64,000 nucleotides of DNA from positions 1 to 64,000 of the forward strand of contig JAAWEL010000066.1 of NCBI GenBank assembly GCA_022794255.1. Direction: 5' to 3'. The stretch comes from Lachnospiraceae bacterium. GTDB lineage: Bacteria; Bacillota; Clostridia; Lachnospirales; Lachnospiraceae. A program made the translations under genes and the position numbers. Below, piece after piece: positions 5,420-50,037 of this stretch. Positions within the stretch are counted from its first letter, which is position 1. The number at the start of each line of letters is the position of its first letter. Below the pieces are notes generated by a model. It searched no databases, was not told the origin of the DNA, and saw only the letters and a list, made by a program, of their open reading frames with translations.

Positions 5420-6376
5420 TCAATCCAACAAAAGTAATGCTGTGTCCGTGTCTGTGATCAGTTCGTTGATATATCCCCGGTTGACAGCTAGTTTGATAAT
5501 CGGTACTTTATGTCTGCCGTAAGAGGTGGCGATTCGATGAGGCACATGAAAAAGGTCTTCCATGGGAAGCGTGATCACCTTTTGATTTAAATCAATATCT
5601 GCAATTGCTCCCTGGGAATCCAGCACATATCCAAGAATACTTCCCAAACAGTTTTTTGTTTCAGCCATGTCCCGGGCGGACAGATAAGGGCGAAAGGAAG
5701 GATTGAAAAGGGGTAGACTGGAAGAGCCGCCGACACCAGTGATCAATACGGTCATATCTTTGGCCTTGCAAAAGGTCCGGTACAGATCCGGTTCAGCCAA
5801 TAAGCGCAGACGCAGCTGCGGATCATTGATATACAAGGGAACATTCATATAATAAGGATTTCCAAAGTGGGAGAAAGCAGCGGCCCGTACCAGCTCCCGG
5901 GATTCGGCGGAGGGATTGGCGAGAGAAATATGCCCTCCGATTTGAACCACAGAAATAGGACTATGAACAGCCTGAGGCAGTTTATTGATCACAGTCTGAA
6001 TCGTTTTTCCCCAAGTGATTCCCAGTGTTGTATTTTCGGTGAGCAATTTGTTTAGATAGACAGCGCCAGCCTGTCCTACTTTGCTGCAGCTATCCGCATA
6101 GGAGGAATATTGAGTGTTTACTACAATGGCATTTTTTAACGGATATTTCTGGAGAAGCTCCTCTTCTAATGTTTTGTTTTGTTCATCAGAATAGTTGATT
6201 TTAATTTCTACGATCTGTTCATTTCTGGCATCCTGCAAAAAGCGGGCAATCTTAAACCGGGTGGTGCCGAAGGCATCGGCAATCTCCATCTGGGTTTTTC
6301 CCTGGTTATAATACATATCAGCCATTTTCGTTAGGGCGTCACGGTGTTCTTTTTTTGATAATTTTTCAAAATCCAT
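5420..6376 (-). CDS. SorC/DeoR-type transcriptional regulator with sugar-binding-like effector domain
   Basis: A 318-residue DNA-binding regulator. A helix-turn-helix lies at about residues 18-50 (MADMYYNQGKTQMEIADAF, then TTRFKIARFLQDAR). The rest is the SorC effector domain: LGITWGKTIQTVI, VVQIGGHIS, and the late TDTDTALLLL ending. The open frame extends 44 codons further upstream, but ATG 6376 is preceded by GCAGGAGG at ideal spacing and matches the family start. It is divergent from the DUF6282/transporter/PrpF/aconitase operon, which it most likely controls. SorC proteins normally bind phosphorylated sugars or related acids; here the neighbouring genes suggest an organic acid signal, which is inference. 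It has its own promoter at 6432-6460. Confidence 0.88.
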   Translation of the reverse strand: MDFEKLSKKEHRDALTKMADMYYNQGKTQMEIADAFGTTRFKIARFLQDARNEQIVEIKINYSDEQNKTLEEELLQKYPLKNAIVVNTQYSSYADSCSKVGQAGAVYLNKLLTENTTLGITWGKTIQTVINKLPQAVHSPISVVQIGGHISLANPSAESRELVRAAAFSHFGNPYYMNVPLYINDPQLRLRLLAEPDLYRTFCKAKDMTVLITGVGGSSSLPLFNPSFRPYLSARDMAETKNCLGSILGYVLDSQGAIADIDLNQKVITLPMEDLFHVPHRIATSYGRHKVPIIKLAVNRGYINELITDTDTALLLLD

Positions 6377-6549: not shown

Positions 6550-6578
6550 TTGAAAAACATTTGAGCAAATGTTATCAT
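6550..6578 (+). promoter_or_regulatory. Operon promoter whose spacer is a perfect palindrome (probable SorC operator)
   Basis: TTGAAA at 6550-6555 and TATCAT at 6573-6578 are 17 bases apart. The sequence between them, AACATTTG-AG-CAAATGTT (6556-6573), is a perfect 8-bp inverted repeat. Direct copies of (A)CAAATGTTAT flank it at 6539-6548, and ACAAATGT occurs at 6588-6595. Binding here would occlude RNA polymerase, so the neighbouring SorC-type regulator is the obvious candidate ligand. Confidence 0.6.
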
Positions 6579-6629
6579 ATGAGCATAACAAATGTGTAAA
6601 TTTAAAACAGAAGTTTAATGGAGGGAAGC

Positions 6630-7553
6630 ATGGAAACAAAAGGAGTGTGGACAGAGCAGATGGGGAAATTCATCGATGGGATGGATCACCGATACACAAG
6701 TGGCCGGCTACACGGAATTGTTGATTTGCACATTCATTCGGCTCCCGATGTGAGGGAGAGAAAGCTGGATGATCTGCAACTGATGGAAGCAGCAGTGGAG
6801 CGGGGAGTTCGGGCAGTAGTCATTAAGTCTCATCATGTTCCAACTGTAGACCGGGCGGCTTTGGTCAATCGGGTCAAGGAAGAAAAATACGGGGATAAAT
6901 CAGATTTCCAGATGTTTGGAGGAATTGCGCTCAACCGCTTTGTGGGGGGAATCAATCCATGGGCGGTGGAGACAGCTTTGAAGCTGGGTGGAAAACTGGT
7001 TTGGCTGCCCACTAACACAGCAGAGAATCATTGCCGGAAAGAAGGGAAAGATCATTTCATATCTTGTGTCCGGGATGGTAAGGTGGTGGAGGAGCTAAAG
7101 GATGTGTTTCAGCTCATTCGTGATTATGACGCAGTATTGGAGACAGGGCATATCTCCCCGAAGGAGTGCTTTTTGGTGACAGAGGCGGCGAGAGATGCCG
7201 GGGTTAAAAAAATTGTGATTACTCATCCGGAATTTCATATTGTAGGGATGACCCTTGAGGAGCAGAAGCAGATTGTAAAGGACTATGGAGTACTTTTGGA
7301 GCGAGTATATGCCCAGCCTGTCGGAGGTGGTGTATACAAAAAGAATTTGGCAGACAATGTGACGGCTATGCAGGAGATTGGATGTGAACATTTTATTGTG
7401 GCAACGGACAGCGGTCAGCTTCAGAACCCGGAATGGTATCGCTCGATTGCAGAATATGTGGATTATCTCTATGATGCAGGCTTTCATGAGGAAGAGATCA
7501 AAAAGATGACAAGAGAAAATCCTGGCAGGATGCTGGGGATAATAGGAGGATAA
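6630..7553 (+). CDS. DUF6282 family amidohydrolase-like metal-dependent hydrolase (paralog 1)
   Basis: A 307-residue cytoplasmic protein of the amidohydrolase-like DUF6282 family. The metal-site pattern is clear: DLHIHSAPD (Asp32, His34, His36), KSHH in the next strand, TGHISP, THPE and a late ATDSGQ. These match the HxH...K...H...H...D arrangement of TIM-barrel amidohydrolases. The substrate is unknown. I chose ATG 6630 over ATG 6618 because GGAGGG at 6620-6625 precedes the former, and the latter has no ribosome site. It is the first gene of an operon with a 2-hydroxycarboxylate transporter, PrpF-type isomerase and aconitase-like hydratase, so an acid lactone or conjugate is a plausible substrate (inference). 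A close paralog sits at 47869-48729 in another acid-metabolism locus. Confidence 0.85.
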   Translation: METKGVWTEQMGKFIDGMDHRYTSGRLHGIVDLHIHSAPDVRERKLDDLQLMEAAVERGVRAVVIKSHHVPTVDRAALVNRVKEEKYGDKSDFQMFGGIALNRFVGGINPWAVETALKLGGKLVWLPTNTAENHCRKEGKDHFISCVRDGKVVEELKDVFQLIRDYDAVLETGHISPKECFLVTEAARDAGVKKIVITHPEFHIVGMTLEEQKQIVKDYGVLLERVYAQPVGGGVYKKNLADNVTAMQEIGCEHFIVATDSGQLQNPEWYRSIAEYVDYLYDAGFHEEEIKKMTRENPGRMLGIIGG

Positions 7554-7558
7554 GAGCT

Positions 7559-8851
7559 ATGGGAAACAACAAATTTAAGCTGTACGGGATGGAATGGTAT
7601 TTGTTTGCATTTTTTGCAGTGGTTATTTTGGCATCTGCTTTTATGGGAATCATCCCAAATCAGCTGATCGGGGCAGTGGCAGTTATGTTTACCCTGGGAA
7701 TCATTCTGGGTGAGGTGGGAGAGCGGATTCCTATCTGGAACAAGTATTGTGGCGGCGGTGCAATTCTGGCATTTCTGGTCTGCGGTTTTTTGACCTTTAA
7801 GGGAGTGATGCCGGAGAGTGTGGTGGAAATTTCTAAGGGATGGATGAACGATTATAGCTTTCTGAATATGTTTATTGCCTTTTTGGTGGTGGGAAGCCTT
7901 TTGGGGTTGGATCGGAATGTTTTGATTAAGTCCAGCGCTTTGTATCTTCCGGCGATTCTGGCAGGCCTGGTGGGGGCCGCTCTTTTGGGTATCCTTGGCG
8001 GTCTGATATTTGGTAAGTCTCCGGTTGAGATATTGACTGCCTATGTGCTTCCGATTATGGGAGGGGGTGCAGGAGCCGGTGCGGTTCCCATGGCTCAGGT
8101 GTATACAGATGTGACTGGTCAGGATTCCGGTGGATATCTGTCTTTTGCTTTGGCGATTCTGGCAGTGGGAAATATTGTCTCTGTGGCTTTTGCCGTTATT
8201 TTGAACCTGGTTGGGGAACTGGTCCCGAAGATGACAGGAAAAGGGGAGCTGGTTCGCAGCGGAAAGGCTATTGAGGTGAAGAAAGCAGAGGAAGTAAAGC
8301 CTACCATGGACGATGTGGCTGCTGGCATTTTTTTGACCTCAGGGTTTTTTATCCTGGCGCAGCTGGTAGCAAAGAAGATTCTTCCTTCAGTTTTTGGGGT
8401 GGCTATTCCTAATTTTGCCTATTTGATTATTTTTGCGGCCCTGGCTAATGTGTTTAACCTGATTCCTGCCAACCTAAGGGCCGGAGCACAGAGATGCCAG
8501 CAGTTTTGTGCCAGCAAGATGATATGGATTCAGATGGTGGGTTGTGGTATAACCCTGATTGATTTTAATGAAATGCTGGGAGTTCTCAGTGTTCCCAACC
8601 TTCTCATTACTGTGTTGATCGTGTTAGGTTCTGTACTTGGTGCCGGAGCATTTGGAATGTTGGTGGGATTTTTCCCGGTGGAGTCAGCTATTACAGCAGG
8701 GCTCTGCATGGCCAACATGGGGGGAGCCGGAGACTTGGCGGTGCTGGGGGCAGCCAAAAGAATGGATCTGATGAGCTATGCCCAGATTTCTTCTCGGATT
8801 GGTGGAGCAATGGTATTGCTGATCGGAAGTTTTATTTTCCAATTCCTGTAA
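7559..8851 (+). CDS. 2-hydroxycarboxylate transporter (2HCT) family citrate/malate-type symporter
   Basis: A 430-residue membrane transporter. The 2HCT signature loop is present in the first half (PIMGGGAGAGAVPMAQVY) and its inverted-repeat partner in the second half (VGFFPVESAITAGLCMANMGGAGDLAVLGAA). Family members (CitS, CitP, MaeN, CimH) carry citrate, malate or lactate with Na+ or H+, or in exchange. About 11 hydrophobic segments are visible. The start lies five bases after the DUF6282 stop, with AGGAGG overlapping that stop region (translational coupling). Its presence argues that the operon imports a di- or tricarboxylate carrying a 2-hydroxycarboxylate-like group. The exact substrate is not readable from sequence. 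Confidence 0.92.
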   Translation: MGNNKFKLYGMEWYLFAFFAVVILASAFMGIIPNQLIGAVAVMFTLGIILGEVGERIPIWNKYCGGGAILAFLVCGFLTFKGVMPESVVEISKGWMNDYSFLNMFIAFLVVGSLLGLDRNVLIKSSALYLPAILAGLVGAALLGILGGLIFGKSPVEILTAYVLPIMGGGAGAGAVPMAQVYTDVTGQDSGGYLSFALAILAVGNIVSVAFAVILNLVGELVPKMTGKGELVRSGKAIEVKKAEEVKPTMDDVAAGIFLTSGFFILAQLVAKKILPSVFGVAIPNFAYLIIFAALANVFNLIPANLRAGAQRCQQFCASKMIWIQMVGCGITLIDFNEMLGVLSVPNLLITVLIVLGSVLGAGAFGMLVGFFPVESAITAGLCMANMGGAGDLAVLGAAKRMDLMSYAQISSRIGGAMVLLIGSFIFQFL

Positions 8852-8935
8852 GAATGGCATTGAGACTTATGGTACAATAGTAAATCGTTGAATTGCATAA
8901 TAGAACAAATCAATGAAAGAGGAGGAGAAACGATT

Positions 8936-10078
8936 ATGAGAAAATTTAAAACTGTGTTTATGCGCGGTGGTACCAGCAAAGGATGTATGTTTCACAAGGA
9001 AGATTTGCCAGAGGACCGAAACGAGTGGGATAAAATCTTTTTACAGTGTATGGGGGATCCGGACCCTAAGCAGATCGATGGATTGGGGGGGACAGTATCT
9101 TCCAATAACAAGATTGTGATCGTGTGGAAAAGCCAGGAGGAAGGGGTTGACGTGGAGTATCTGGTAGGCCAGGTGATCGTAGGCAAGAGCCAGGTGGATT
9201 ACAAGTCGAATTGCGGGAACATGACAGCAGCGGTAGGTCCTTATGCAGTGGAGGAGGGGATGGTTGACATTGTGGAGCCTGTTACCACAGTGCGTATGCT
9301 GAATCGGAACACAAATAAACATATTCAGGTAACTGTGCCCATTGATCCAGAGACGAAAACCTTTTCCCAGGAAGGGGATTGTGCCATTGCCGGAGTGGAT
9401 GGCACAGCGGCGGAGCTGAAGGTGAAATTCATGAATCCTGCCGGATCAAAAACCGGCAAGCTGCTTCCCACAGGAAATGTGCTGGATGTGCTGGAGATTC
9501 CGGGATTTGGAAAAATTGAGGCAAGCATTCTGGATGTATCCAATCCTATGGTTTTGGTGCGGGCAGAGGATATTGGCATGAAGGGAACAGAGCTTCCGGA
9601 GGAGATCAACCAAAATAAGGAGAACTGTGATCTCTTGGAAAAGATTCGGGGGACAGGCGCCTGCATGATGGGCTTTGCAAAGGATTTGAAAGATGCCACA
9701 GACAACAGTCCGGCAGTGCCAAAGGTTGGTTTTTTTACAACCCCCAAAGATTACAGGGATATTGCAGGGGAGCAGGCTCATAAGGAAGACATGGACGTGT
9801 GTGCCCGGGTGATTTCTGTGTTCAAATGTCATAAGGCATGCCCTTTGACTTCAGCCAGTTCTATCGCGGTGGCCGCATTTTTAAAGGGATCGGTTATCTA
9901 TAAAACAGTGGGAGCGCCCAAAGCAGGTACAGAGAATGTGCGGATCGGCCATCCCAGCGGTGTAATGACCATGAGCCCGGATTTGGTGGTTCATGGAGAG
10001 GAGATCAAACTGCCCAGTGTTGCTGTTTGCCGCACAGCCAGAAGAATTATGGATGGAACCGTGTATGTGAGAGAGTAG
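8936..10078 (+). CDS. PrpF-family isomerase (2-methylaconitate / 4-oxalomesaconate / methylitaconate isomerase type)
   Basis: A 380-residue protein with the PrpF (diaminopimelate-epimerase) fold. Landmarks are MRGGTSKGCMFHKEDLP at the N-terminus, IDGLGGTVSSNNK, the catalytic NCGN motif in DYKSNCGNMTAAVG, and RIGHPSGVM near the C-terminus. Known members shift double bonds or cis/trans geometry in aconitate-like acids: PrpF on methylaconitate, LigU on oxalomesaconate, Mii on methylitaconate. The open frame begins at 8888, but GGAGGAG at 8921-8927 points to ATG 8936. It lies between the transporter and the aconitase-like gene, so isomerisation should feed the hydratase. A decayed second copy is at 15186-15701. 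Confidence 0.9.
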   Translation: MRKFKTVFMRGGTSKGCMFHKEDLPEDRNEWDKIFLQCMGDPDPKQIDGLGGTVSSNNKIVIVWKSQEEGVDVEYLVGQVIVGKSQVDYKSNCGNMTAAVGPYAVEEGMVDIVEPVTTVRMLNRNTNKHIQVTVPIDPETKTFSQEGDCAIAGVDGTAAELKVKFMNPAGSKTGKLLPTGNVLDVLEIPGFGKIEASILDVSNPMVLVRAEDIGMKGTELPEEINQNKENCDLLEKIRGTGACMMGFAKDLKDATDNSPAVPKVGFFTTPKDYRDIAGEQAHKEDMDVCARVISVFKCHKACPLTSASSIAVAAFLKGSVIYKTVGAPKAGTENVRIGHPSGVMTMSPDLVVHGEEIKLPSVAVCRTARRIMDGTVYVRE

Positions 10079-10139
10079 ACGGGCAGGGAACACACGGTAG
10101 ATAAAAACATTATAGAAGAAAATCAGAAGGAGAAGAAAA

Positions 10140-12434
10140 ATGGTGAAGCTTTATGATACAGGTGCCTATCTGATAAATGGAACGACCCTGGTGCCAGAGG
10201 AGGATATGGCTCAGGTGAAGGCCTTAACCGGAAAAAGTGTGACAAAACAGGAGGCAAAAAAAGGTACAATGGCTTACTCTATTCTGGAAAAGCACAATAC
10301 ATCCGGCGATATGGATAAGCTTAAGATAAAATTTGATGCCATGACCTCTCACGATATTACCTTTGTGGGGATTATCCAGACAGCCAAGGCTTCCGGTATG
10401 ACGGAATTTCCCATACCTTATGTGCTGACCAACTGTCACAATTCTCTGTGTGCAGTGGGAGGCACTATCAATGAGGATGACCATGTATTTGGCCTGTCGG
10501 CCTGCCAGAAATACGGCGGTATTTTTGTTCCTCCCCATATTGGGGTCATTCACCAGTATATGCGGGAGACCATGGCGGGGGGCGGAAAGATGATCCTTGG
10601 TTCCGATTCTCACACCCGCTATGGAGCTTTGGGAACTATGGCAATCGGGGAGGGAGGCGGTGAGCTTGTAAAGCAGCTTTTGCGCGACACCTATGATATC
10701 GCTTATCCGGGAGTTGTGGCCATCTATCTGGATGGACAGGTAAATCCAGGGGTAGGGCCTCAGGATATTGCCATTGCCATTATTACGGCTGTATTTCAAT
10801 GCGGATATGTGAAAAACAAAGTGATGGAGTTTGTAGGGCCTGGGGTTTCCACCATAACTACAGATTTTAGAAATGGTGTGGATGTTATGACCACAGAGAC
10901 TACCTGTCTTTCTTCGATCTGGCGGACGGATGAGGACACAAAGGCATTTTTGACTCTTCATGGAAGAGAAGGGGATTATCAGGAGCTGAATCCGGCTCAG
11001 ATAGCTTACTATGACGGGGTGGTCTACGTGGATTTGAGCACAGTTAAGCCAATGATAGCCCTTCCGTTCCATCCCAGCAATGGATTTGAGATTCAAAAGT
11101 TGAATGAAAATCCAGGGGATATTCTGCGGAGTATTGAAAAGGAGGCAGCAAAGATTTCTGGCAATCCGGATATTGACTTCAGCCTGACAGATAAGCTGGT
11201 GGATGGAAAGCTGCAGGTGACTCAGGGGATTATTGCCGGATGCGCTGGCGGCAACTACACCAATGTGATGGAGGCAGCTCATATTCTGAAGGGAAAGAGC
11301 TGTGGCTTAGACTACTTCTCTCTGTCTGTATATCCATCTTCTCAGCCAGTGTACATAGATTTGGTGAAAAAGGGAGCTGTTGCAGATTTGATGGCAGCGG
11401 GAGCTGTATTAAAGACTGCTTTCTGCGGGCCATGTTTTGGTGCAGGAGATACCCCAGCCAACAATGGTTTTTCCATTCGTCATACCACCAGAAACTTCCC
11501 TAACCGTGAAGGATCCAAACCAGGAGTGGGACAGATGGCGGCAGTTGCTCTTATGGATGCCCGGTCTATTGCAGCTACGGCGGCTAATGGAGGACAGCTG
11601 ACAGCGGCCACGGATGTGGTTGATAAAACTTATGAGGTGCCTGCCTATGAGTTTGACAACCGTGTTTACAAGGCCAGGATTTATCAGGGATATAATAAAG
11701 GTGACAAGGGGAAGAAACTGGTATATGGTCCTAACATTAAGGACTGGCCAGAAATGAGCCCGCTGACAGATAATATCCTTTTAAGAGTGTGCTCGAAGAT
11801 ATTGGATGCCGTTACCACTACAGATGAGCTGATTCCTTCTGGAGAGACATCTTCTTACCGCTCCAATCCTCTGGGTCTGGCAGAGTTCACGCTTTCCAGA
11901 AGAGATCCGGAGTATGTGGGCCGTTCCAAAGCAGTGGATAAGATTGAAAAAGCCCGTGTGGCAGGTAGATGTCCCTGTGAGATGGAGCCAGAGCTAAAAG
12001 ACATATTTGACAAAATCCGCACCATTCCCGGTAGTGAGAATGTGAAAGCATCCGAGACAGAAGTGGGAAGTGTGGTCTATGCCCGCAAGCCTGGGGATGG
12101 CTCTGCACGGGAACAGGCTGCAAGCTGCCAGAGAGTGATCGGTGGTCTGGCTAATATCTGTACAGAGTATGCCACAAAGCGTTATCGCTCCAATGTAATG
12201 AACTGGGGGATGCTTCCCTTCCAGATGGAGGGTGAGCCGGAGGCCTTTGAGGTGGGAAGCTATATTTATGTACCAGGGATCAGGGAAGCGCTGGATGGAG
12301 ACATGAAAGGAATCAAGGCGTATATCATTGGGGATGAGATAAAGGAACTTCAATTGTATATTACGGACATGACACCGGACGAGAAAAAGATCGTGAAGGC
12401 TGGATCCCTGATCAATTTTAACCGTAACCGGTAA
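10140..12434 (+). CDS. Aconitase-superfamily hydratase (YbhJ-like)
   Basis: A 764-residue 4Fe-4S hydratase of the aconitase superfamily. The cluster ligands are visible as Cys368 ([10 protein letters not shown]), Cys429 and Cys432 ([12 protein letters not shown]). The substrate motif [20 protein letters not shown] is intact, followed by [12 protein letters not shown] in the third domain. The C-terminal swivel domain ends the protein ([34 protein letters not shown]). It resembles the YbhJ-type 'hydratase' group more than housekeeping aconitase. E. coli likewise keeps ybhJ with a PrpF-like gene (ybhH) and a transporter. Likely reaction: reversible hydration of an unsaturated di/tricarboxylate produced by the upstream isomerase. 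RBS AAGGAG precedes ATG 10140. It is the last gene of the operon; no terminator is obvious. Confidence 0.88.
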
Positions 12435-12478
12435 GATTGAATAGGGAAACAGCGTAATTGCTCAGTCAATCGGAACAG

Positions 12479-12910
12479 TTACATGTATATCTCATCAGAA
12501 AGCTCAATGATATCATCAATTGGAATCCCAGTGCCGTCCTGTAAAATAACTTTGCGATGATACCAGTCTGTTTTTTTCAGAAAGCCAGTGGCAGAGACAT
12601 AAGCGCCGCCGGCTTTTTCTTTGTCTGGAAGAAAATACTGGATGGTGATCTGGGGGTGAAGAGAGGCATTTTGATGCAGCCTGCGGAGCTTTTCGTCCAA
12701 AAGATCTTTGGCATTTTCGTCCAGTTCAATCCTTTCGTCCGTAAAACGAGCTGCCTTTCGGACTGCGTCATGATAGCTGGTCAGAGCGGCAAAGGGAGCA
12801 AACTGAGCGGCCCGGTCTCTCGCCGGCATAGGAGGGTGAGTGGCGGAGACGGGGTGGGAGAGATAGAGAATATCCTTATAAGGAAAAGGGGATGGTTGGG
12901 AATGGTTCAT
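12479..12910 (-). CDS. YolD-like family protein, partner of the Y-family polymerase
   Basis: A 143-residue small protein. It contains a conserved N-terminal segment PPMPARDRAAQFAPFAAL and a C-terminal beta-rich domain (TIQYFLPDKEKAGGAYVSAT ... IPIDDIIELSDEIYM). This is the pattern of the YolD-like proteins found beside UmuC/DinB-type polymerases in Firmicutes, where they are thought to modulate translesion synthesis. The open frame can be read from a TTG at 12943, but AGGAAA followed by ATG at 12910 is the better start. It is 74 bases downstream of the polymerase gene on the same strand, so the two form an operon under the SOS-type promoter at 14637-14665. Confidence 0.8.
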   Translation of the reverse strand: MNHSQPSPFPYKDILYLSHPVSATHPPMPARDRAAQFAPFAALTSYHDAVRKAARFTDERIELDENAKDLLDEKLRRLHQNASLHPQITIQYFLPDKEKAGGAYVSATGFLKKTDWYHRKVILQDGTGIPIDDIIELSDEIYM

Positions 12911-12984
12911 GGTTTTCCTTTCGTTGTGTTTTTTGGAGTGCAATTACTTGGGAGAGAGGCAGCCAGGCAATGGGGCAGGGACAG

Positions 12985-14514
12985 TCATGCATTATGGCCG
13001 CCGATCTGTTTGTTCCGTTCCCTGGCAGTGGCGCCCTCTTCCAGGCTCATGCCTTTTAATATGGCGTTTTTGCCGAACTTCTTTTTAACAGTTAGCATGG
13101 CCTTTTGAAGCTGTTTTTCTTTTTGCAGCATGGCCTCTTCTTTCTGGTGTTGCCTCTCTAACTGTTCGTAGTCGGTAAACAGGTTCAGCTGTTCAAAGCC
13201 TTTGGAATGTTGGACAGAGGATGCTGGTGTTATGCGGGTGGCTGTGATGTAAATTCGCTTAATCAGAAGATTCCTGTCTGCAATCTGGTCAAACAGCTCC
13301 AGGGCGGAGCAGATGATCTGTCTGGCGGAGGAAGTCTGCCGGGGCAGGTTGACTGTGCCGTGGGCATGTTTGGGAATCTTCCGCCCATAACGGTCTGTGG
13401 TGACGGGACCTTTGTAGATTTGGCGTATCTGAGGGTCTGTGAGGCAGGCCATGTCATAGCCTGCAGTGAGAACCAGCTGAGAGGTTACTAGGTTTTTGTC
13501 CACCAGATCCAGAGCCAGCTGGTCAGCCATCTCCTTGATCACCAGACGGGCTTTGTCAAAGGAGTAGGGACAGGAGAGAATCTGGCCGCCTCCAATACTG
13601 CTGCTTTCCGGTTGATAGGACTTGATATCTGCCATGGTGCAGGGCTCCCATCCCCAGGCATGGTCGATGAGGAGTTCTGCATTGATGCCAAATAGACGGT
13701 ACAAAAGCTCTTCATTGTGAAAGTCACCGGGCTTTCCCAGAGAGCAACGGGCAATATCTCCCATGGTGCAGAGGCCATGCTCTTTCAGCTTGATGGAATA
13801 GCCGTGTCCGATGCGCCAGAAATCGGTGAGAGGGCGATGATTCCACAAAAGGCGGCGGTAGGATATCTCGTCAAGCTCTGCAATACGGACACCGTGCTCA
13901 TCTGCAGGAACATGCTTAGCCATAATGTCCATGGCCACCTTGGCCAGATAGAGATTTGTCCCAATACCACCAGTGGCGGTAATGCCAGTGGTTTTTTGCA
14001 CATCACGAATCATCCTTCCCACTAGCTCCCGGGCAGAGGGGCAGCGGGGAGAGAGATAACCGGTGACATCGATCATGACCTCATCAATGGAATAGACATG
14101 AATGTCCTCCGGAGCGATATATTTTAAATAAATATCATAGATTCTGGTGCTGTATTCCATGTAGAGGGACATCCGGGGAGTGGCAGTAATGTAGTCTAAG
14201 GACAGATCAGGGCGGGCTTTGACCTCAGGATCGTGGAAGGAGGAGCCAGAAAAGGTATGGCCAGGGGCGTGGAGGCTTCTCTGGGAATTGATCTGTTCGA
14301 CCTTCTGAATCACCTCAAACAGGCGGGGGCGTCCAGGAATGCCGTAGGCCTTTAGGGAGGGGGATACGGCAAGGCAGATCGTCTTTTCCGTGCGGCTCTT
14401 GTCAGCCACCACCAGGTTGGTGGTAAGAGGGTCAAGTCCCCGCTCAATGCATTCAGCGGAGGCGTAGAAAGACTTTAAATCAATGGCAGCATAAACAGGA
14501 TCTTTTGGTGGCAT
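12985..14514 (-). CDS. Y-family (UmuC/DinB-type) translesion DNA polymerase
   Basis: A 509-residue error-prone polymerase. The catalytic palm motifs are visible: YAAIDLKSFYASAEC (metal-binding Asp12) and VYSIDEVMIDVTGY (Asp-Glu pair). ATGGIGTNLYLAKVAMD and the helix-hairpin-helix-like WRIGHGYSIKLKEHG follow. A C-terminal little-finger and extension region covers about residues 290-509, ending in a charged coiled segment rich in Gln/Glu/Lys (about 445-480). Length is above classical DinB (about 350) and fits the UmuC/UvrX-like Firmicutes group. Its promoter carries a perfect GAAC-N4-GTTC LexA-type box, so SOS induction is likely. It is followed by the YolD-like gene. Confidence 0.92.
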   Translation of the reverse strand: MPPKDPVYAAIDLKSFYASAECIERGLDPLTTNLVVADKSRTEKTICLAVSPSLKAYGIPGRPRLFEVIQKVEQINSQRSLHAPGHTFSGSSFHDPEVKARPDLSLDYITATPRMSLYMEYSTRIYDIYLKYIAPEDIHVYSIDEVMIDVTGYLSPRCPSARELVGRMIRDVQKTTGITATGGIGTNLYLAKVAMDIMAKHVPADEHGVRIAELDEISYRRLLWNHRPLTDFWRIGHGYSIKLKEHGLCTMGDIARCSLGKPGDFHNEELLYRLFGINAELLIDHAWGWEPCTMADIKSYQPESSSIGGGQILSCPYSFDKARLVIKEMADQLALDLVDKNLVTSQLVLTAGYDMACLTDPQIRQIYKGPVTTDRYGRKIPKHAHGTVNLPRQTSSARQIICSALELFDQIADRNLLIKRIYITATRITPASSVQHSKGFEQLNLFTDYEQLERQHQKEEAMLQKEKQLQKAMLTVKKKFGKNAILKGMSLEEGATARERNKQIGGHNA

Positions 14515-14535
14515 GGCGTAATCTCCGGTCTTTTA

Positions 14536-14569
14536 AAGGACAGAGTGCATAATAAATCTCTCTGTCCTT
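14536..14569 (-). other. Inverted repeat in the polymerase mRNA leader
   Basis: A perfect 10-bp inverted repeat (AAGGACAGAG / CTCTGTCCTT) with a 14-base loop, about 20 bases upstream of the polymerase start codon. It could fold in the mRNA leader. It has no T-tract on the transcribed strand. Confidence 0.45.
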
Positions 14570-14636
14570 GCTGGACTCTGATCATTAACCTACGGGTTGC
14601 TTGTTGGTGGTTGTAAAGAAAAATGTTTCTGTCATA

Positions 14637-14665
14637 AGAATAGAACAGATGTTCGATTTTGTAAA
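14637..14665 (-). promoter_or_regulatory. SOS-type promoter: LexA/DinR box inside the spacer
   Basis: On the minus strand, TTTACA (14665-14660) and TATTCT (14642-14637) are 17 bases apart. The spacer contains GAAC-AGAT-GTTC (14643-14654), a perfect inverted repeat matching the Gram-positive LexA box core GAACNNNNGTTC. LexA binding would block the promoter directly. Confidence 0.75.
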
Positions 14666-14707
14666 ATATTTATAAGTTATAGAAAGATGATACTTTATAA
14701 CTATAAA

Positions 14708-14875
14708 CTATGGAAAAATGTATGCAGGACCAGAAACTGCCAGTTGCGGTAGTAATCCTATGAGGGTGACTTTCAGACTGGCGTTCAAAATCCGCTCTAA
14801 TTCCTCTCTTGGGATTTCCATATCCTCAAATTGCCGGATACTTCTTCTTTCGTTCACCACTTCATAAAATCCCAT
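14708..14875 (-). pseudogene. Nitroreductase N-terminal fragment
   Basis: Only the first roughly 33 residues resemble a nitroreductase: MGFYEVVNERRSIRQF, then MEIPREELERILNASLK. Full nitroreductases have about 170-200 residues with FMN-binding segments further on. Here the similarity ends at NASLK and the frame stops about 20 codons later. A deletion has apparently removed the rest. No function is expected. Confidence 0.6.
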
Positions 14876-15185
14876 GATTTTTAGCATATTCACTGTATAG
14901 AGCAAACTGCGCATCTCGGAATTTGCAGTATAGATAAGCGTTTTTCTTATTTTCTTTCGTTATAATGTCCACCCCTTTCTTACAGTAAATTTCAGTATAG
15001 TCAAATTATTTACTAGCAGAGTGATAGCACATCAGTCGAATTTTGTCAAGGATGCAGGAATAAAAAGCTGGTATCCTTTCGATTCTGCTCCTACAGTTGT
15101 TCATTGTGGAATTGAAATGGAGTGAGCAAAAGAAAAGCTCTATGGGGCAGGACCATGGTCCGAAAAAAGAAAAAGGGGAAAGTAT
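14876..15185. other. Decayed intergenic stretch
   Basis: No intact gene. A plus-strand frame around 15070-15165 reads like a coding remnant (SWYPFDSAPTVVHCGIEME, stop, AKEKLYGAGPW) but I cannot name it. Together with the flanking nitroreductase and PrpF fragments this suggests an eroding segment between 14.7 and 15.7 kb. Confidence 0.3.
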
Positions 15186-15701
15186 ATGTCAAAACGTGCG
15201 CAGAAATAAAAAAGGATTCCATGTGCTTATATGAGAGGAGACACTTTAAAAGTGGTTGTTTTTCATGAGAAGGATTTGCCAAAGGATAAGAGGAAGCTGA
15301 ATGATATTTTTTTGAAGGTGATGGGGACACCGGACGTGAAGCAGATTGACAGGATGAGGGGCACTGTGCTGTCCTTCTCAAAAATTGCTGTGATCAAAAA
15401 GTCCAAGCAGGTGGGAATCAATGTGGATTACACGTTTTGTCAGGTTAATATAGAAATTCCAGTGGCGGATTTCAAGGCTAACTGTGGGAACATTTCTTCT
15501 ACTGCAGGCCTCTTTGCCATTGATGAAGGGTTGGTGGAGCCGATAACGGAAGTGAGGGTGTTTAACACCAGTACGGGCAAGGTGATTGTGAAACGGGTCC
15601 AGGTAAAGGATGGGAAAGCCTGCGTGTACGGAGATGGGAGGATTTCCGGAGTGCCGGGAACCAGGTCACGGATTGATGAGTGTTTTGAGTCCCAGCCATG
15701 A
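15186..15701 (+). pseudogene. Broken PrpF-family isomerase (second copy)
   Basis: Reading from ATG 15186 gives MSKRAQK, then a TAA stop at codon 8 (15207-15209), and the same frame continues as KRIPCAYMRGDTLK and onward. This closely parallels the intact PrpF at 8936, including the catalytic NCGN (DFKANCGNISSTAG). Compared with the intact copy the glycine-rich MRGGTSKG is altered to MRGDTLKV. The frame ends at 15701 after about 170 codons, roughly half of the usual 380. So it carries both an early nonsense codon and loss of the C-terminal half. An AGGGG ribosome site still precedes the original start. A start at the in-frame ATG 15231 would be possible, but half a fold is unlikely to work. 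Confidence 0.85.
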
Positions 15702-16078
15702 CATTTTTTATCCATTAGCGTACCGCATTTGAATAAAAGACCTGGTTTTTGCTTTCTATCTATTGGCCTATTGATTACGGCGTTGGTAAGATTTGTGCCT
15801 CTGCAAAGATACATGTACTGAAATAGATTGGATTATCCAGGCAAGACTGCTACTGACCACTTATCGTTCCTATCCGGCAATAGAGCAATAAGCGATGGAT
15901 GTTGCTTTTTTGTCTACGTATTTCATAAAAGTGCAGGTTGTCAAACACATTCATTTTTGATATAATTCCTTCCGGGAAGTTATAGTAAGTGACAAATTAG
16001 CAGGTTATTTATTATGACTCTTTGAGAGTTATGCACAATAATTGTGTATTCTTATTACATGAAGGAGGAGTTCCGTGA
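15702..16078. other. Intergenic region with permease promoter
   Basis: No gene is seen in these 377 bases. The first 200 bases may include decayed remains of the PrpF 3' half, but I could not align them. The right half carries the permease promoter (15938-15966) and a CACAAT-A-ATTGTG palindrome at 16034-16046. Confidence 0.5.
15938..15966 (+). promoter_or_regulatory. Promoter of the amino-acid permease gene
   Basis: TTGTCA (15938-15943), 17-base spacer, perfect TATAAT (15961-15966). The leader to ATG 16079 is about 105 bases and contains the perfect palindrome CACAATAATTGTG at 16034-16046. Confidence 0.75.
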
Positions 16079-17515: not shown

Positions 17516-17593
17516 GAACAAAAAAGGCGGAGAAGGAAGCGTGTATGGGGCCTTTGCTGCCGGGAAAACCTTGTCTGAAAAGGGAGGGATTTT

Positions 17594-18878: not shown

Positions 18879-19086
18879 AATCCACCTCCCGGATTGTGAT
18901 GACTGTTGCAGGACATTCTTTGGCGCACTTGCCGCAGCCCACACATTTTTTTAAATCTACCATTGCCATAATGCCTTTGGGAATCTGAATGGCGCCCATG
19001 GGGCATACCTTGGCGCAGCAGCCGCAGGCAACGCAGATTTTTTCATCTACAAAGGCTTTTCTTCGTTTCTTTTTTGGGACATTCAT
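18859..19086 (-). CDS. 2[4Fe-4S] ferredoxin
   Basis: A 75-residue ferredoxin with two complete cluster motifs: CVACGCCAKVCPMGAI and CVGCGKCAKECPATVI. Each has the C-x2-C-x2-C-x3-C-P spacing that binds 4Fe-4S. A basic N-terminus (MNVPKKKRRKAF) precedes the first cluster. AGAGGAGG precedes ATG 19086. The stop lies inside the start region of the polyferredoxin-type membrane protein, so both should be made together. The promoter at 19134-19162 has a Crp/Fnr-type inverted repeat upstream. Confidence 0.92.
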   Translation of the reverse strand: MNVPKKKRRKAFVDEKICVACGCCAKVCPMGAIQIPKGIMAMVDLKKCVGCGKCAKECPATVITIREVDYEKEMV

Positions 19087-45397: not shown

Positions 45398-45464
45398 ATC
45401 TGTATAAACAACAAGGATGCAGGCACGGAAAAGAAATAAAATGCAAACAATGAGGAGGAGAAAA

Positions 45465-46631
45465 ATGAGCGATATTATACAGGCACAGGAAAAATTCGGG
45501 GAACTGATCCGGTCAGAATTTGAGCGGATTGAGCGGATGAAGCAGGATAATAAGGTGAAGGATTTTAGCAAGCTGAAAAAGATTGTGGTCGGGATTCTTC
45601 CCGGTGATGGCATTGGCCCGATTATTATGGAGCAGGCTCTGCGGGTGATTCGGGCTTTGATTCCTGAGGAGATTGAGAAGGGGAAGGTTGAGCTTCGGTT
45701 GATTGATGGGATGACCATTGAGAACCGGGCCGCAAAACTTCAAAGCCTGCCAGATGAGGTTTTTGAGGAGATCAGGAAATGTGATGTTCTCTTAAAAGGA
45801 CCCATGGTGACACCCAGGGCCGGGGAGCCGTGGCCCAATCTGGTCTCAGCCAATAGCTTGCTGCGGCGAGGCCTGGGATTGTTTGCAGCAGTGCGTCCCA
45901 TTCGGATTCCTGACAAGGGCATTGACTGGACCTTTTTCAGGGAGAATATTGAGGGGGAATATATCTGGGGAAATAAGGGAATCCAGGTAAATGAGGATCT
46001 GGCTGTGGATTTTAAAGTACAGACTCGGCAAGGAAGCGAGCGCATTGCCCGGGCAGCTTTTGCGTTTGCCAGAAAAAACGGCAAAAGGAATGTGACGATT
46101 GTCACCAAAGCCAATATCGTAAAGCTGGCAGATGGAAACTTTATTAAGGCTGTGAGAAAAGTAGGAGAGGAGTATCCGGAGATTGAGATTCAGGAGCGGC
46201 TGGTAGATGCCATGTGCGCCAAAATGCTGGATCCGGAGTTTAACAAGGGGATTGAGGTGGTGGTGCTTCCCAATCTGTATGGGGATATTGTCACAGATGT
46301 GGCGGCAGAGCACCAGGGCGGTCTAGGCACTGCTTCCTCCTCTAATATAGGCAATCAGTATGCCATGTTTGAGGCGATCCACGGTACAGCGCCCTATCTT
46401 ACGAGCCATGGAAGAGGGGAGTATGCGGATCCCAGTTCTCTGATCCGGGCAGCAGGCATGATGCTGGCGCATATCGGGTTTGTAAAGAAGAAGGAACTTT
46501 TGGAAAAGGCAATGGAGATCTGTACTGTGACGGAACGGAGAGTGGTGCTGACTACTTTTGCGGAAGATGCCAGCACAAAAGAATTTGCAGATTATGTGAT
46601 TAAGACCATTGAAACATTGAAGAAAGGATAA
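45465..46631 (+). CDS. Isocitrate/isopropylmalate/tartrate-type NAD(P)-dependent dehydrogenase
   Basis: A 388-residue beta-decarboxylating dehydrogenase. Motifs: GILPGDGIGPIIMEQALRV at the N-terminus; VRPIRIPDKGIDWTFFRENI as the substrate and metal region; NLYGDIVTDVAAEHQGGLG (two catalytic aspartates). SSNIGNQYAMFEAIHGTAPYL follows; the usual HGTAPD is HGTAPY here. The family acts on isocitrate, homoisocitrate, isopropylmalate, or tartrate-like acids. ATG 45465 has GGAGGAG upstream; earlier in-frame codons lack it. The dehydrogenase lies upstream of a convergent LysR gene, whose other side starts a DUF6282/transporter operon; a shared motif links them. It is likely to oxidatively decarboxylate a 2-hydroxy acid (inference). 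Confidence 0.9.
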   Translation: MSDIIQAQEKFGELIRSEFERIERMKQDNKVKDFSKLKKIVVGILPGDGIGPIIMEQALRVIRALIPEEIEKGKVELRLIDGMTIENRAAKLQSLPDEVFEEIRKCDVLLKGPMVTPRAGEPWPNLVSANSLLRRGLGLFAAVRPIRIPDKGIDWTFFRENIEGEYIWGNKGIQVNEDLAVDFKVQTRQGSERIARAAFAFARKNGKRNVTIVTKANIVKLADGNFIKAVRKVGEEYPEIEIQERLVDAMCAKMLDPEFNKGIEVVVLPNLYGDIVTDVAAEHQGGLGTASSSNIGNQYAMFEAIHGTAPYLTSHGRGEYADPSSLIRAAGMMLAHIGFVKKKELLEKAMEICTVTERRVVLTTFAEDASTKEFADYVIKTIETLKKG

Positions 46632-46780: not shown

Positions 46781-47683
46781 TCAGGACAAGGATTCCCGAA
46801 TCACTTTTCCTAAGGCAAGGGCAGCTTTTGACTGGTAGGTGGAATAGGGGTGAGCCAGTGCCAGCTCAAGAAATACGCCTTTTTCCCCAATGGACAGATA
46901 GAGCGTGTCCGGATAGTCCTGGGCGCAGGAATGGTAAGTGAAGGCAAGCCCCAAACCGGCCCGTGCCATGGCCACACCCAGATCCGCAGTGATGTTGGTA
47001 TTGTAGGCAATGGGCTTGATGCCGGCTTTCTCAAACTGGCGGCGGCTGTTGCTGCCGAGGATGGTGTCATAGTCACTTAAGATATATTCAAAAGAGGTTG
47101 TATCTTTAAGATCAACCCAATAATAGGGAGAGTTTTCCCTTTTATGTGCAAATTCCATGACTGGATGATTGCGGTTAGCCACAATAAATATCTCATCCTT
47201 TTTTATAAATTCTACCTCGTGGGTCAGCCGGGTTAGGGGGAGGGCTACAATGGCCAGATCAATCGAACCCTCAATCAGACGGTCCTCTAAGGCCATGCTG
47301 TTTTGTTCCACAATATCAACCCGGATTCCGGGATATTTCTCATAAAAGCTGGTTAAGATTTTGGGCAGCATATACCTGCCCCGGAAGGAGCTGATGCCAA
47401 GAATCACGCTTCCTCCGTGGAGTCCTGCCATGTCCCACAGTTCATTTTGTACCAGACGATAGTGGGTAAGGATGGTGCGGGCATTATCAATAAAAAGCGT
47501 TCCGGCGGAGGTGGGACGGATCCCCTTGGAAGTGCGTATAAACAGGGGAAGCCCCAGCTCGGATTCATATTGCTGCAAGAACTGGCTTAAGCTGGACTGG
47601 GCCATATAAAGCTTGTCAGCAGCCCGGGAAATACTGCCTTCCTCTGCCAGGGTGACAATGTATTTGAGTTCCTTTAAATGCAT
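46781..47683 (-). CDS. LysR-family transcriptional regulator
   Basis: A 300-residue regulator with a single winged helix (MHLKELKYIVTLAEEGSISR, AADKLYMAQSSLSQFLQQYE) and the effector domain from about residue 90. The reading frame begins at 47692, but ATG 47683 has AAGGGGG at a spacing of nine bases and gives the typical start. It is divergent from the DUF6282/MatC-like operon and convergent with the dehydrogenase gene. A TTTTACCTATAG motif overlaps its promoter and is shared with the dehydrogenase promoter, so autorepression and control of both units is proposed. The inducer is probably the acid substrate. Confidence 0.92.
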   Translation of the reverse strand: MHLKELKYIVTLAEEGSISRAADKLYMAQSSLSQFLQQYESELGLPLFIRTSKGIRPTSAGTLFIDNARTILTHYRLVQNELWDMAGLHGGSVILGISSFRGRYMLPKILTSFYEKYPGIRVDIVEQNSMALEDRLIEGSIDLAIVALPLTRLTHEVEFIKKDEIFIVANRNHPVMEFAHKRENSPYYWVDLKDTTSFEYILSDYDTILGSNSRRQFEKAGIKPIAYNTNITADLGVAMARAGLGLAFTYHSCAQDYPDTLYLSIGEKGVFLELALAHPYSTYQSKAALALGKVIRESLS

Positions 47684-47714
47684 ATTGGTCATCCCCCTTT
47701 TCTTTTGTTATCGG

Positions 47715-47868: not shown

Positions 47869-48729
47869 ATGGGAAATGTATCTTTAAAGGGAGTCATTGA
47901 TATGCATGTGCATTCCAATCCGGATATCCGGCACCGGGCATACGATGACTTTGAACTGATGGAGGCAGGGATCCGGGTAGGAGCCAGGGCCATTGTGATC
48001 AAAACCCATCAGGGAACCACGGTGGACCGGGCATTTCTTTGCAATCGCCACAATCAGATTGTTCATCAGGGGGATAATGATTTTACCATGTTTGGAAGCG
48101 TTACTATGAACCGACAGATGGGAGGAATCAATCCCTGGGCAGTGGAAAGTGGTCTGAAGCTGGGGGCTAAGGTAATCTGGCTGCCTACCCAGTCTGCCCG
48201 CAATAATATGCTAAAGCAGAACCAGGATCCGTCCGGCTGCGTGGATGTGATCCGGGACGGAAAGGTAGTGCCTGAGCTGCTTAGCGTATTTCAGTTGGTA
48301 AAGGATTATGATGTGGTTTTGGGGACTGGTCATGTATCTCCTCAGGAATGCTTTGTAGTTGTGGAGGCTGCCAGAAATGCAGGAGTAAAAAAGCTGGTGG
48401 TGACTCATCCGGAGTGGTGGATGGTAGGCATGTCCTTAGAGGATCAGGTGCGGATCGTGAAGGATTATGATGTGATCTTAGAGCATTGCTTTGCTCAGCC
48501 CATGGGCGGCGGTAAATATAAGAGCAATCTGCCCATGAATCTGGAGGCGGTTCAGGCATGTGGGTACAAAAATGTGATGGTTTCCACAGATGGAGGACAG
48601 GTGGAGAATCCAAACTGGGAAATCGCCTTAGAACAGTATATGCAGTATCTTTTTGACCATGGAGTAGGGAAAGAGGAGCTTCGCTATATGACCCATGACA
48701 TCCAGGCAGGGCTTTTAGGAATTGCGTAA
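47869..48729 (+). CDS. DUF6282 family amidohydrolase-like hydrolase (paralog 2)
   Basis: A 286-residue paralog of the protein at 6630-7553. The metal motifs are preserved: DMHVHSNPD (Asp11, His13, His15), IKTHQG, TGHVSP, VTHPEWW, and STDGGQ. The middle part MGGINPWAVESGLKLGAKVI matches the first copy strongly. Length is slightly shorter because the first copy has an N-terminal extension of about 20 residues. AAGGAGGAAGG precedes ATG 47869. Followed after 12 bases by a dicarboxylate-type transporter gene. As in the other locus a DUF6282 protein is paired with a carboxylate transporter, with a central-metabolism-like enzyme nearby. Substrate unknown. Confidence 0.87.
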   Translation: MGNVSLKGVIDMHVHSNPDIRHRAYDDFELMEAGIRVGARAIVIKTHQGTTVDRAFLCNRHNQIVHQGDNDFTMFGSVTMNRQMGGINPWAVESGLKLGAKVIWLPTQSARNNMLKQNQDPSGCVDVIRDGKVVPELLSVFQLVKDYDVVLGTGHVSPQECFVVVEAARNAGVKKLVVTHPEWWMVGMSLEDQVRIVKDYDVILEHCFAQPMGGGKYKSNLPMNLEAVQACGYKNVMVSTDGGQVENPNWEIALEQYMQYLFDHGVGKEELRYMTHDIQAGLLGIA

Positions 48730-48741: not shown

Positions 48742-50037
48742 ATGCTGAGTGTATTGATAATCGGGGCGATTGCTTTGTCGGTTGCCATAGGATATAAGAC
48801 AAAGTTTAACACAGGATTTTTTGCCATTGTATTTGCTTATCTGATCGGCTGCTTTGCCATGGGGATGAAAACCAAGGCAGTGATTGCTGGCTGGCCTGTG
48901 AGTACCATGTTTGTGATATTTTCTGTCTCTCTGTTTTACAATTTTGCGCTGGTAAACGGCACACTGGAAAAAACAGCCCGGTATCTTTTGTATGCCTGCC
49001 GCAGATTTCCCGGGCTTTTGCCTTTTGCTCTGTATCTGGCCAGCGCGGGAATCGCCGCTTTAGGGGCAGGCTTCTTTACTGTAATGGCATTTATGGCCCC
49101 TATTACTATTTTGATCTGCAAGGAAGCAAAGATGGATCAGCTGACCGGTGCGGTGGCTATCAACTGTGGAGCCCTCTCAGGTGCTAACTTCATGACCAGC
49201 GGAAGCGGAATCATTTTTCGGGGACTGATGGAAGAGAATGGACTGGGAGAGGCAGCATTTTCCTATACAGCGGTGATTTTTGCAGGAAGCGTGCTCTTTT
49301 CTTTGCTGTTAATCGCTGCATTCCGTTATATTCCAAAAAACAACCGCAATATAGGCAAAGGAGTGACTTTTGAAAAACCGGAGGCATTTACAGATAAGCA
49401 GAAGATCAATCTGTACCTTATGATTGCCATGATTGCCGTGGTTTTGATTTTCCCGATTTTACATATTGTGATGCCCAATGCAGAGGTAATCACCTTTATC
49501 AACAGCAAAATGGATGTGGGACTGGTAGCGGTTATGTTCTCAGTTATTGCCATGTTTTTTGGGCTGGCGCCTCAGAAGGATGTGATTGCCAAGGTTCCAT
49601 GGAACACGATTATCATGATCTGCGGTGTGGGAATGCTGATTAATGTGGCGATTGAGGCCGGAACCATTGATCTTCTGGCAGCATGGGCGGGAAGCAGCCT
49701 GCCAACCTGGATTGTACCTATCGCTTTCAGTATCATAGGAGCAATCATGAGCTTTTTTTCCAGCACGCTGGGGGTGGTATGCCCCGCATTGTTTCCTTTG
49801 GTTCCCACGCTGGCAGGAACCACAGGAATCAACCCACTGATTCTCTTTGCCTGCATTGTGATCGGGGCACAGAGCTCAGCTATCTCACCTTTTTCTTCTG
49901 GCGGAAGCCTGGTTCTTGGTTCTTGCAGCACGGAAGAGGAGAGAAATGAGATGTTTCCCAAGTTGTTGTTTGTGGCAGTTCCGGCAAGTGTTATGTCAGC
50001 GGTGGTGTTTAACCTGATTCTGTCTCTTGTATTGTAA
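48742..50037 (+). CDS. MatC/SLC13-like dicarboxylate transporter
   Basis: A 431-residue membrane protein with about 12 hydrophobic segments. It belongs to the ion-transporter superfamily group that includes the malonate/dicarboxylate carrier MatC and other SLC13-like proteins. Characteristic features are the N-terminal AIALSVAIGYKTKFNTGFFA, the reentrant loop ALSGANFMTSGSGIIFRG, a second loop GAQSSAISPFSSGGSLVLG and NTIIMICGVGMLINVAIEAG. AGGAGG precedes ATG 48742. Co-transcribed with the DUF6282 paralog. It probably imports a di- or tricarboxylate for this locus. A strong terminator follows. Confidence 0.85.
   Translation: MLSVLIIGAIALSVAIGYKTKFNTGFFAIVFAYLIGCFAMGMKTKAVIAGWPVSTMFVIFSVSLFYNFALVNGTLEKTARYLLYACRRFPGLLPFALYLASAGIAALGAGFFTVMAFMAPITILICKEAKMDQLTGAVAINCGALSGANFMTSGSGIIFRGLMEENGLGEAAFSYTAVIFAGSVLFSLLLIAAFRYIPKNNRNIGKGVTFEKPEAFTDKQKINLYLMIAMIAVVLIFPILHIVMPNAEVITFINSKMDVGLVAVMFSVIAMFFGLAPQKDVIAKVPWNTIIMICGVGMLINVAIEAGTIDLLAAWAGSSLPTWIVPIAFSIIGAIMSFFSSTLGVVCPALFPLVPTLAGTTGINPLILFACIVIGAQSSAISPFSSGGSLVLGSCSTEEERNEMFPKLLFVAVPASVMSAVVFNLILSLVL

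Follow-up and report, generated by a model that had tools for sequence, protein, structure and literature searches.

A predicted tricarboxylate operon in a Lachnospiraceae bacterium couples a DUF6282 candidate hydrolase to an aconitase-type hydratase

A stretch of 64,000 nucleotides from a Lachnospiraceae bacterium (GenBank assembly GCA_022794255.1, contig JAAWEL010000066.1, positions 1 to 64,000; hereafter the window) carries four adjacent genes for a DUF6282 protein, a 2HCT-family transporter, a PrpF-family isomerase and a YbhJ-family hydratase. As a claim about the class of pathway, this operon probably encodes a tricarboxylate route with citrate or isocitrate as its end product. Three features point to these C6 acids: citrate lyase genes among the neighbours in relatives, a dehydrogenase of the isocitrate type, and the aconitase active site of the hydratase. 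A full order of steps, in which the operon would import masked aconitate or isocitrate (as a lactone, mono-ester or mono-amide) and DUF6282 would unmask it before isomerisation and hydration, is favoured by a slight balance of probability. The gene identities, their order, their recurrent linkage, the active-site residues of PrpF and aconitase and the altered transporter site are all read from the sequence itself.

The DUF6282 gene (6618..7553, forward strand; PF19799, E 7.7e-68, 228.5 bits) encodes an amidohydrolase-like barrel and a predicted hydrolase; its start is more likely at 6630 than at 6618, because a ribosome-binding site can be read by eye at 6620-6625. It is followed on the same strand by the transporter with its altered substrate site (7559..8851; PF03390, E 2.2e-132, 442 bits), the isomerase (8936..10078; PF04303, E 9.9e-119, 397 bits) and the hydratase, a predicted aconitase (10140..12434; NF008503, the PRK11413 family, 1355.3 bits, cut-off 641). 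The PrpF profile scan ran from a TTG at 8888, the ATG at 8936 being the preferred start. With spacings of 5, 84 and 61 nucleotides, in this order, all four genes are intact and collinear, so that the four neighbours named in an earlier note on this DNA are confirmed by profile matches. Its proposal of a carboxylic-acid catabolic operon with aconitate-type candidate substrates is also supported. The DUF6282-PrpF-2HCT-hydratase linkage recurs in other genomes.

In the proposed mechanism, the altered 2HCT carrier would import an acid derived from aconitate or isocitrate whose hydroxyl is absent or masked. DUF6282, acting as an amidohydrolase-type hydrolase, would unmask this acid, and PrpF, where needed, would shift or flip the double bond so that cis-aconitate is formed. 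Addition of water by the YbhJ-type aconitase would then yield citrate or isocitrate, which could be oxidised by the isocitrate/isopropylmalate dehydrogenase-family protein (Iso_dh) of a second locus in the window or, in relatives, cleaved by citrate lyase. The hydrolase role of DUF6282, the order of the steps and the substrate are what we infer. Any single substrate is considerably less certain than the step order as a whole, and even the leading guess, isocitrate lactone, is unlikely when taken alone.

The hydratase of the window is most likely an aconitase, a reading that follows from largely retained aconitase active-site residues and from the occurrence of YbhJ in 229/250 genomes sampled from the bacterial family to which the window belongs, 223 of them with a single copy (E 1e-200). 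A profile of 18 YbhJ members was aligned to mitochondrial aconitase, for which we take the residue numbering and the roles (4Fe-4S cysteines, catalytic, substrate-binding) to be the accepted ones. Residues aligned to aconitase C358, C421, C424, R447, R452, H101, H147 and D165 are kept, and so are those aligned to H167, E262, S642 and R644. On the YbhJ side, the aligned residues C368, C429, C432, R451, R456, S655 and R657 are invariant in the 18 sequences, and R574 corresponds to aconitase R580 by identical TTD+12 spacing, as read by eye. The Aconitase_C domain falls slightly below the Pfam cut-off (22.2 versus 22.8), and the score for the AcnD 2-methylisocitrate dehydratase equivalog TIGR02333 is 58.1 against a cut-off of 1419.85. 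In a sample of 398 genomes from the phylum, YbhJ is above cut-off in 31. It adjoins citrate synthase and an Iso_dh-family gene in one comparison locus (L094; locus and genome handles are given as L and G numbers), lies near Iso_dh in two more (L096, L098) and adjoins citE-citF and the TctABC tricarboxylate transporter in another (L116). YbhJ is thus probably the housekeeping aconitase of the family.

A further line of evidence is the carrier. Its PF03390 match and both GGxG hairpin motifs place it in the 2HCT family; its score for the CitS equivalog NF047943 is 517 bits, below the cut-off of 600. In KpCitS, the substrate hydroxyl is bound by S405 (Thr in two other carriers modelled), the 3-carboxylate is held by N186, R402 and Y348, and the 1-carboxylate is held by R428, which is oriented by Q424; malate carriers likewise lack N186, R402 and Y348, yet they retain the hydroxyl-binding Thr (PMC5451387). 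Among the CitS contacts N186, Y348, R402, S405 and R428, the window carrier retains R428 alone, with A171, L333, M387 and A390 at the altered site and Q409 and R413 kept. The same pattern is found in all nine 2HCT proteins of this type, window included: S405 is replaced by Ala, R402 by Met and N186 by Ala in 9/9, Y348 is replaced by Leu, Ala, Met or Ile, and Q424 and R428 are kept. Judged from these residues, the carrier is therefore unlikely to accept citrate, isocitrate or malate. Because the hydroxyl-binding serine and the three third-carboxylate side chains are lost throughout, the imported acid probably has no free 2-hydroxyl and perhaps only two free carboxylates.

The isomerase belongs to the PrpF superfamily, equivalents of SoPrpF K73 and C107 being conserved in 9/9 sequences compared. 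It scores 304 bits against the PrpF equivalog TIGR02334 (cut-off 440.55) and 319.8 bits against the oxalomesaconate (OMA) tautomerase model NF033377 (cut-off 440), and its nearest solved matches are 3-methylitaconate isomerase (E 5e-79) and SoPrpF (1.4e-75). Substitution of K73 or C107 abolished the function of Shewanella PrpF, which has aconitate isomerase activity (PMC5690661), and its superfamily also includes TarA and TbrA, which are aconitate isomerases (PMC11495376). For these two reasons trans-aconitate is a likely intermediate in the PrpF-bearing version of the route. The window holds a further PrpF piece (15231..15701, forward strand), an N-terminal half that covers positions 9-160 of the 371 in the PF04303 profile. 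It lies downstream of a gene for a Y-family polymerase and is probably the remnant of another PrpF.

DUF6282 itself was described in the earlier note as having, to its author's knowledge, no published function, and no mention of it was found among the 5.39 million papers searched, subscription-only papers and preprints lying outside that search. Both DUF6282 genes of the window exceed the curated PF19799 cut-off of 26.8 bits (228.5 and 212.9 bits). The predicted model (predicted local distance difference test, pLDDT, 90.5) is an amidohydrolase-type (beta/alpha)8 barrel; its closest solved folds are amidohydrolase barrels, and lactonases, which rank high, dihydroorotases and isoaspartyl dipeptidase are among its matches. 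A sequence search against solved structures gave no match below E 0.16. Residues D36, H38, H40, K70, H178, E183, H203 and D264 are invariant across 27 sequences. In a set of 114 sequences, from which those outside 230-420 amino acids or under 70 bits were excluded, H38, H40, H178 and D264 occur in 114/114 and H203 and K70 in 112/114 each. This agrees with the pattern HxH, His, His and Asp, which we take to be the metal ligands of amidohydrolases. Within the window's clade, R46 is present in 84/84 sequences, and outside the clade another residue is commoner at this position; R48 is nearly universal, and extra arginines of this kind would suit a substrate with several carboxylates.

In the protein tree, the ten DUF6282 proteins of the 2HCT/PrpF type form one branch (100/98) beside those of the MatC type. 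A distant clade (L062, L064, L066, L068, L069 and L080; partly L063 and L071) is accompanied by all or part of a set that consists of molybdenum hydroxylase subunits, a ferredoxin protein resembling dihydroorotate dehydrogenase, an Asp/Glu-racemase-like protein and regulators of the PucR type, partners that were named by Pfam on representatives only. This setting suggests cyclic-amide hydrolysis in nitrogen-ring breakdown for that clade.

Linkage was followed in relatives by scanning named genomes with an alignment of four DUF6282 sequences and taking the best 80 of 198 loci; genes were counted by bit-score thresholds, and only 37 of the 80 loci are at least 20 kb long. Because the loci were picked by DUF6282, its own presence is uninformative. 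Among the 80, MatC is found in 64, LysR in 60 (at least 150 bits), YbhJ in 27, CitE in 10 and CitG in 9; CitF, 2HCT and PrpF each occur in 8, Iso_dh occurs in 6 and the SorC regulator in 5. If one YbhJ gene were placed randomly in a 3 Mb genome, chance would put it into about 0.5 of 80 such stretches, each 20 kb long. The gap between DUF6282 and MatC is at most 60 nucleotides in 58 of 65 cases. In Faecalibacterium longum (L143, L184) the order is DUF6282-MatC-YbhJ-small acyl carrier protein-type gene-CitE-CitF, the cluster of the small gene matching PF06857 in L151, and DUF6282-MatC-Iso_dh is found in L162, L166 and L195. Three loci (L125, L128, L129) fuse both window loci into LysR, DUF6282, MatC, SorC, DUF6282, 2HCT, PrpF, YbhJ and Iso_dh; since L128 and L129 share nearly the same layout, these amount to two merged cases. 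The PrpF of L128 is split into two gene calls. Independently of the named scan, MatC-DUF6282 lies divergent from LysR with YbhJ next to it in two genomes of the family sample (G516, G627), and CitE, CitF and CitG follow YbhJ in G627.

Extra copies of YbhJ also track DUF6282. Of the six family genomes with at least two YbhJ genes, five carry DUF6282, which is present in 22 genomes of the family sample in all (Fisher p 1.9e-5), and the association persists without the window genome (p 1.8e-4). Co-occurrence at the level of genomes (42/49 genomes; 50 of the 80 loci) had looked strong against the 31/398 of the phylum sample and was dropped, YbhJ being present in 229/250 genomes of the family; gene adjacency and extra YbhJ copies are the usable linkage evidence. 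A neighbourhood comparison of the kind that the earlier note had asked for thus bears it out in part: the window's DUF6282 clade is linked to the set in a portion of the loci, and this does not extend to the wider family, since the 31 DUF6282 loci from other genomes of the phylum sample include just two with YbhJ or PrpF (L076 and L077, with YbhJ) and another clade keeps company with molybdenum hydroxylases. In two Bacillus-type stretches (L193, 6008-10822; L194, 6976-13545), DUF6282 stands with LysR, an RraA-like aldolase and a major facilitator superfamily (MFS) transporter; in L194, from B. sonorensis, PrpF and an aconitase of 905 amino acids accompany DUF6282, LysR and MFS.

A second DUF6282 locus lies in the window itself and, like the divergent SorC-type regulator of the operon, was absent from the earlier note. 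It comprises an Iso_dh gene (45417..46631, forward strand; PF00180), a LysR-type regulator (46781..47692, reverse strand) divergent from the second DUF6282 gene (47869..48729, forward; PF19799, E 4.7e-63, 52% identity to the first) and a MatC-type carboxylate transporter (48742..50037, forward; PF07158, PF03600). The best solved-structure matches of this Iso_dh are isocitrate dehydrogenases, and its S-A-N loop aligns with S-V-N, S-I-N and S-A-N of solved enzymes; an S-x-N substrate loop is presumably the mark of the isocitrate dehydrogenase type. In the merged clusters L125, L128 and L129, Iso_dh comes directly after YbhJ. The draft genome (G000; 86.8% complete) contains two DUF6282 matches only, both within the window, and three YbhJ-type genes, the window copy being 83% identical to a copy on contig C11. 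The third belongs to a further tricarboxylate cluster (L222, contig C25, 6682-17837) with a 2HCT carrier, a class II aldolase, a kinase-like protein, an aconitase of 658 amino acids and an Iso_dh (739 bits to the window Iso_dh). The carrier on C25 retains N186 and R402.

The genus Acidaminococcus offers an instructive comparison, a locus of which (L197) surfaced in the named-genome scan. DUF6282 is found in 7/9 Acidaminococcus genomes, at one to four places, YbhJ in 9/9, and MatC adjoins DUF6282 in 6/9. In one of these genomes, G694, MatC-DUF6282 adjoins Iso_dh, MatC, a PF10282 lactonase, aconitase and YbhJ, an order that agrees with Acfer_1968, 1969, 1971 and 1973, which are listed under trans-aconitate fermentation in the available parts of PMC3035267; A. 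fermentans ferments trans-aconitate via citrate (PMC3035267). The stretch has no 2HCT match. The PF10282 gene, which lies between the MatC and aconitase genes (L237, contig C1 of G694, 12407-18219), may be a lactonase that independently serves the step suggested here for DUF6282.

Several known systems resemble the operon in part. The tarRAB system for trans-aconitate assimilation in Bacillus velezensis consists of an isomerase, the MFS importer TarB and the LysR regulator TarR; the likeness lies in a PrpF-superfamily aconitate isomerase beside an importer and an adjacent regulator (PMC11495376). The window shares the type of isomerase only: 2HCT and SorC replace MFS and LysR, and DUF6282 and a dedicated aconitase are added. 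In Escherichia coli, the YbhD-regulated ybhH-ybhI-ybhJ genes encode a PrpF-family protein, a carboxylate transporter and a YbhJ-family hydratase; this cluster differs in its LysR regulator and transporter family, and the available parts of the source neither establish its substrate nor report a DUF6282 (PMC9068703). MatC, isocitrate/isopropylmalate dehydrogenase and aconitase-family genes are likewise grouped in A. fermentans, whereas DUF6282 is not mentioned in the accessible sections of PMC3035267. The SorC-type regulator of the window has a precedent, because SorC-type CitI responds to citrate in Weissella and is divergent from citrate carrier and citrate lyase genes in the cit operons of lactic acid bacteria (PMC10798043). 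Unlike these, the operon of the window lacks a citrate lyase, and citrate-binding side chains are missing from its carrier. The nearest described relatives are thus the ybhHIJ cluster and the tar systems, the new part being the added uncharacterised hydrolase in a tricarboxylate operon.

A number of observations weigh against the unmasking route. PrpF is near DUF6282 in just 8/80 loci, so that most relatives have none there, and the G694 stretch has no PrpF match; its separate lactonase also makes DUF6282 less needed for that cluster. YbhJ is missing in 6/22 family genomes with DUF6282 versus 15/228 others (p 0.005; one of the six, G633, was assigned negative by elimination), which speaks against a simple dependence. 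The aconitase assignment is weakened by an Ala where aconitase has S643 and by the C-terminal stretch, which alone aligns weakly to aconitase (E 0.0032). RraA-like aldolases in L193 and L194 could point to a keto-acid cleavage route. In DUF6282, the metal site may be mononuclear or otherwise unusual: classic binuclear amidohydrolases have a bridging Lys or Glu on strand 4, strand 4 of the model (127-129) has neither, and the conserved K70 ends strand 2. Amidohydrolase folds also host hydratases, isomerases and decarboxylases, and hydrolysis by DUF6282 is for this reason unproven.

Among the alternatives, plain assimilation of trans-aconitate is conceivable but doubtful. Here 2HCT would import trans-aconitate, PrpF would convert it to cis-aconitate and YbhJ to citrate or isocitrate, leaving DUF6282 an accessory that clears a side product or, in relatives without PrpF, substitutes for it as isomerase or hydratase. 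The tar system, with its PrpF-family aconitate isomerases and transporter, the trans-aconitate fermentation of A. fermentans together with the frequency of DUF6282 and its adjacency to MatC in that genus, and the grouping in B. sonorensis speak for this, and the loss of the hydroxyl-binding serine suits an acid without a hydroxyl. However, DUF6282 has no needed step where PrpF is present, and the carrier has also lost the third-carboxylate side chains, whereas trans-aconitate has three carboxylates. In an isocitrate-lactone route, a special case of the unmasking route and unlikely by itself, DUF6282 would act as a lactonase and open the lactone of isocitrate or alloisocitrate. Its product would pass to Iso_dh or, via YbhJ, to citrate and citrate lyase, while PrpF would handle a minor isomer. 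Isocitrate as DUF6282 product fits L162, L166 and L195 (Iso_dh) and L143 and L184 (YbhJ-citrate lyase), and a lactone, with two carboxylates and no free hydroxyl, matches the altered carrier. The high rank of lactonases in the fold search and the G694 lactonase between MatC and aconitase of the neighbouring cluster agree with it. Yet true isocitrate needs no PrpF, a shared fold leaves the cleaved bond open, PF10282 proteins are not all small-acid lactonases, and the one literature match for isocitrate lactone is listed as a urine metabolite study. The lactonase gene in the Acidaminococcus stretch shifts some weight towards unmasking and its lactone case and away from the plain route.

Two further routes are very improbable. 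The earlier note had drawn a parallel to LigI-LigU-LigJ and to AcnD/PrpF, of which the order of chemistry (hydrolyse, isomerise, hydrate) and the PrpF family stand, while identity of the pathway is unsupported, since the scores for the OMA tautomerase, PrpF and AcnD equivalogs all fall below their cut-offs and the neighbours indicate C6 citrate or isocitrate. In a Lig-like route, DUF6282 would open pyrone dicarboxylate and PrpF would tautomerise oxalomesaconate before hydration and aldolase cleavage; the OMA tautomerase match and the RraA-like aldolases adjoining DUF6282 in L193 and L194 are in its favour. Against this, the tautomerase match is under its cut-off, the hydratase has an aconitase active site and 83% identity to a second copy in the genome, and the scanned window genes around the operon include no aldolase, citrate lyase and isocitrate-type dehydrogenase recurring instead. 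LigI is absent among the structure matches listed for the DUF6282 model, which is uninformative either way. Equally remote is a dimethylmaleate/methylitaconate route of the kind found in nicotinate fermentation, in which PrpF would be the methylitaconate isomerase. The best solved match of PrpF is indeed that enzyme, but SoPrpF scores nearly equally and citrate lyase neighbours do not fit; moreover, dimethylmaleate-type hydratases have two subunits and YbhJ is a single chain. A cyclic imide such as citrazinate was set aside as a substrate for lack of support. Literature searches on citrazinic acid with aconitate and on trans-aconitate hydratase gave nothing useful.

Upstream of the operon, the divergent SorC-type regulator (5420..6376, reverse strand; PF04198) starts at 6376 as read by eye, its listed open reading frame extending to 6508 from a TTG; regulators of this type also adjoin 2HCT-type DUF6282 genes in L123, L125, L126, L128 and L129. 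The intergenic region holds a perfect palindrome, AACATTTGAGCAAATGTT (6556..6573; 0.02 expected in the window, up to 2 mismatches), with halves AACATTTG-AG-CAAATGTT, which is a candidate operator; the earlier note had set the start of the operon at 6556. A search for its core in 225 loci gave one match, the window's own copy (L001), and conservation is thus unsupported. Elsewhere in the window, a second catabolic cluster (21483-36135) with LysR and TetR regulators, an acyl-CoA ligase, an FMN/FAD reductase, two class III CoA-transferases, two acyl-CoA dehydrogenases and both electron-transfer flavoprotein subunits resembles an anaerobic acrylate or ring-acid reduction pathway. A protein of 471 amino acids encoded at 32855-34270 had no match in the Pfam scan. 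On the minus strand, 18303-20513 encodes two proteins, one that matches 4Fe-4S marginally and one that belongs to DUF6688, a family of unknown function.

In gut and rumen bacteria from several families, the window's DUF6282 clade turns up repeatedly beside one small group of tricarboxylate genes. Linkage, intact active-site residues of the partners and the altered carrier narrow its candidate substrates to a handful that can be purchased or synthesised, by which the family becomes directly testable. The near-universal YbhJ as probable family aconitase bears on the uncharacterised E. coli ybhHIJ genes, and the clusters offer candidate genes for the known trans-aconitate fermentation of Acidaminococcus. 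The route would reveal how anaerobes of the gut make use of plant acids of the aconitate type. On the most far-reaching reading, which is improbable, the DUF6282 clade would have a novel enzymatic function, the unmasking of derivatives of aconitate or isocitrate. Trans-aconitate monomethyl ester is the product of the Tam methyltransferase and is made and released by E. coli. In the boldest form of this reading, which is distinctly improbable, gut bacteria would scavenge this ester, DUF6282 demethylating it and PrpF and aconitase completing the conversion; if true, the detoxified waste of one microbe would be the food of another.

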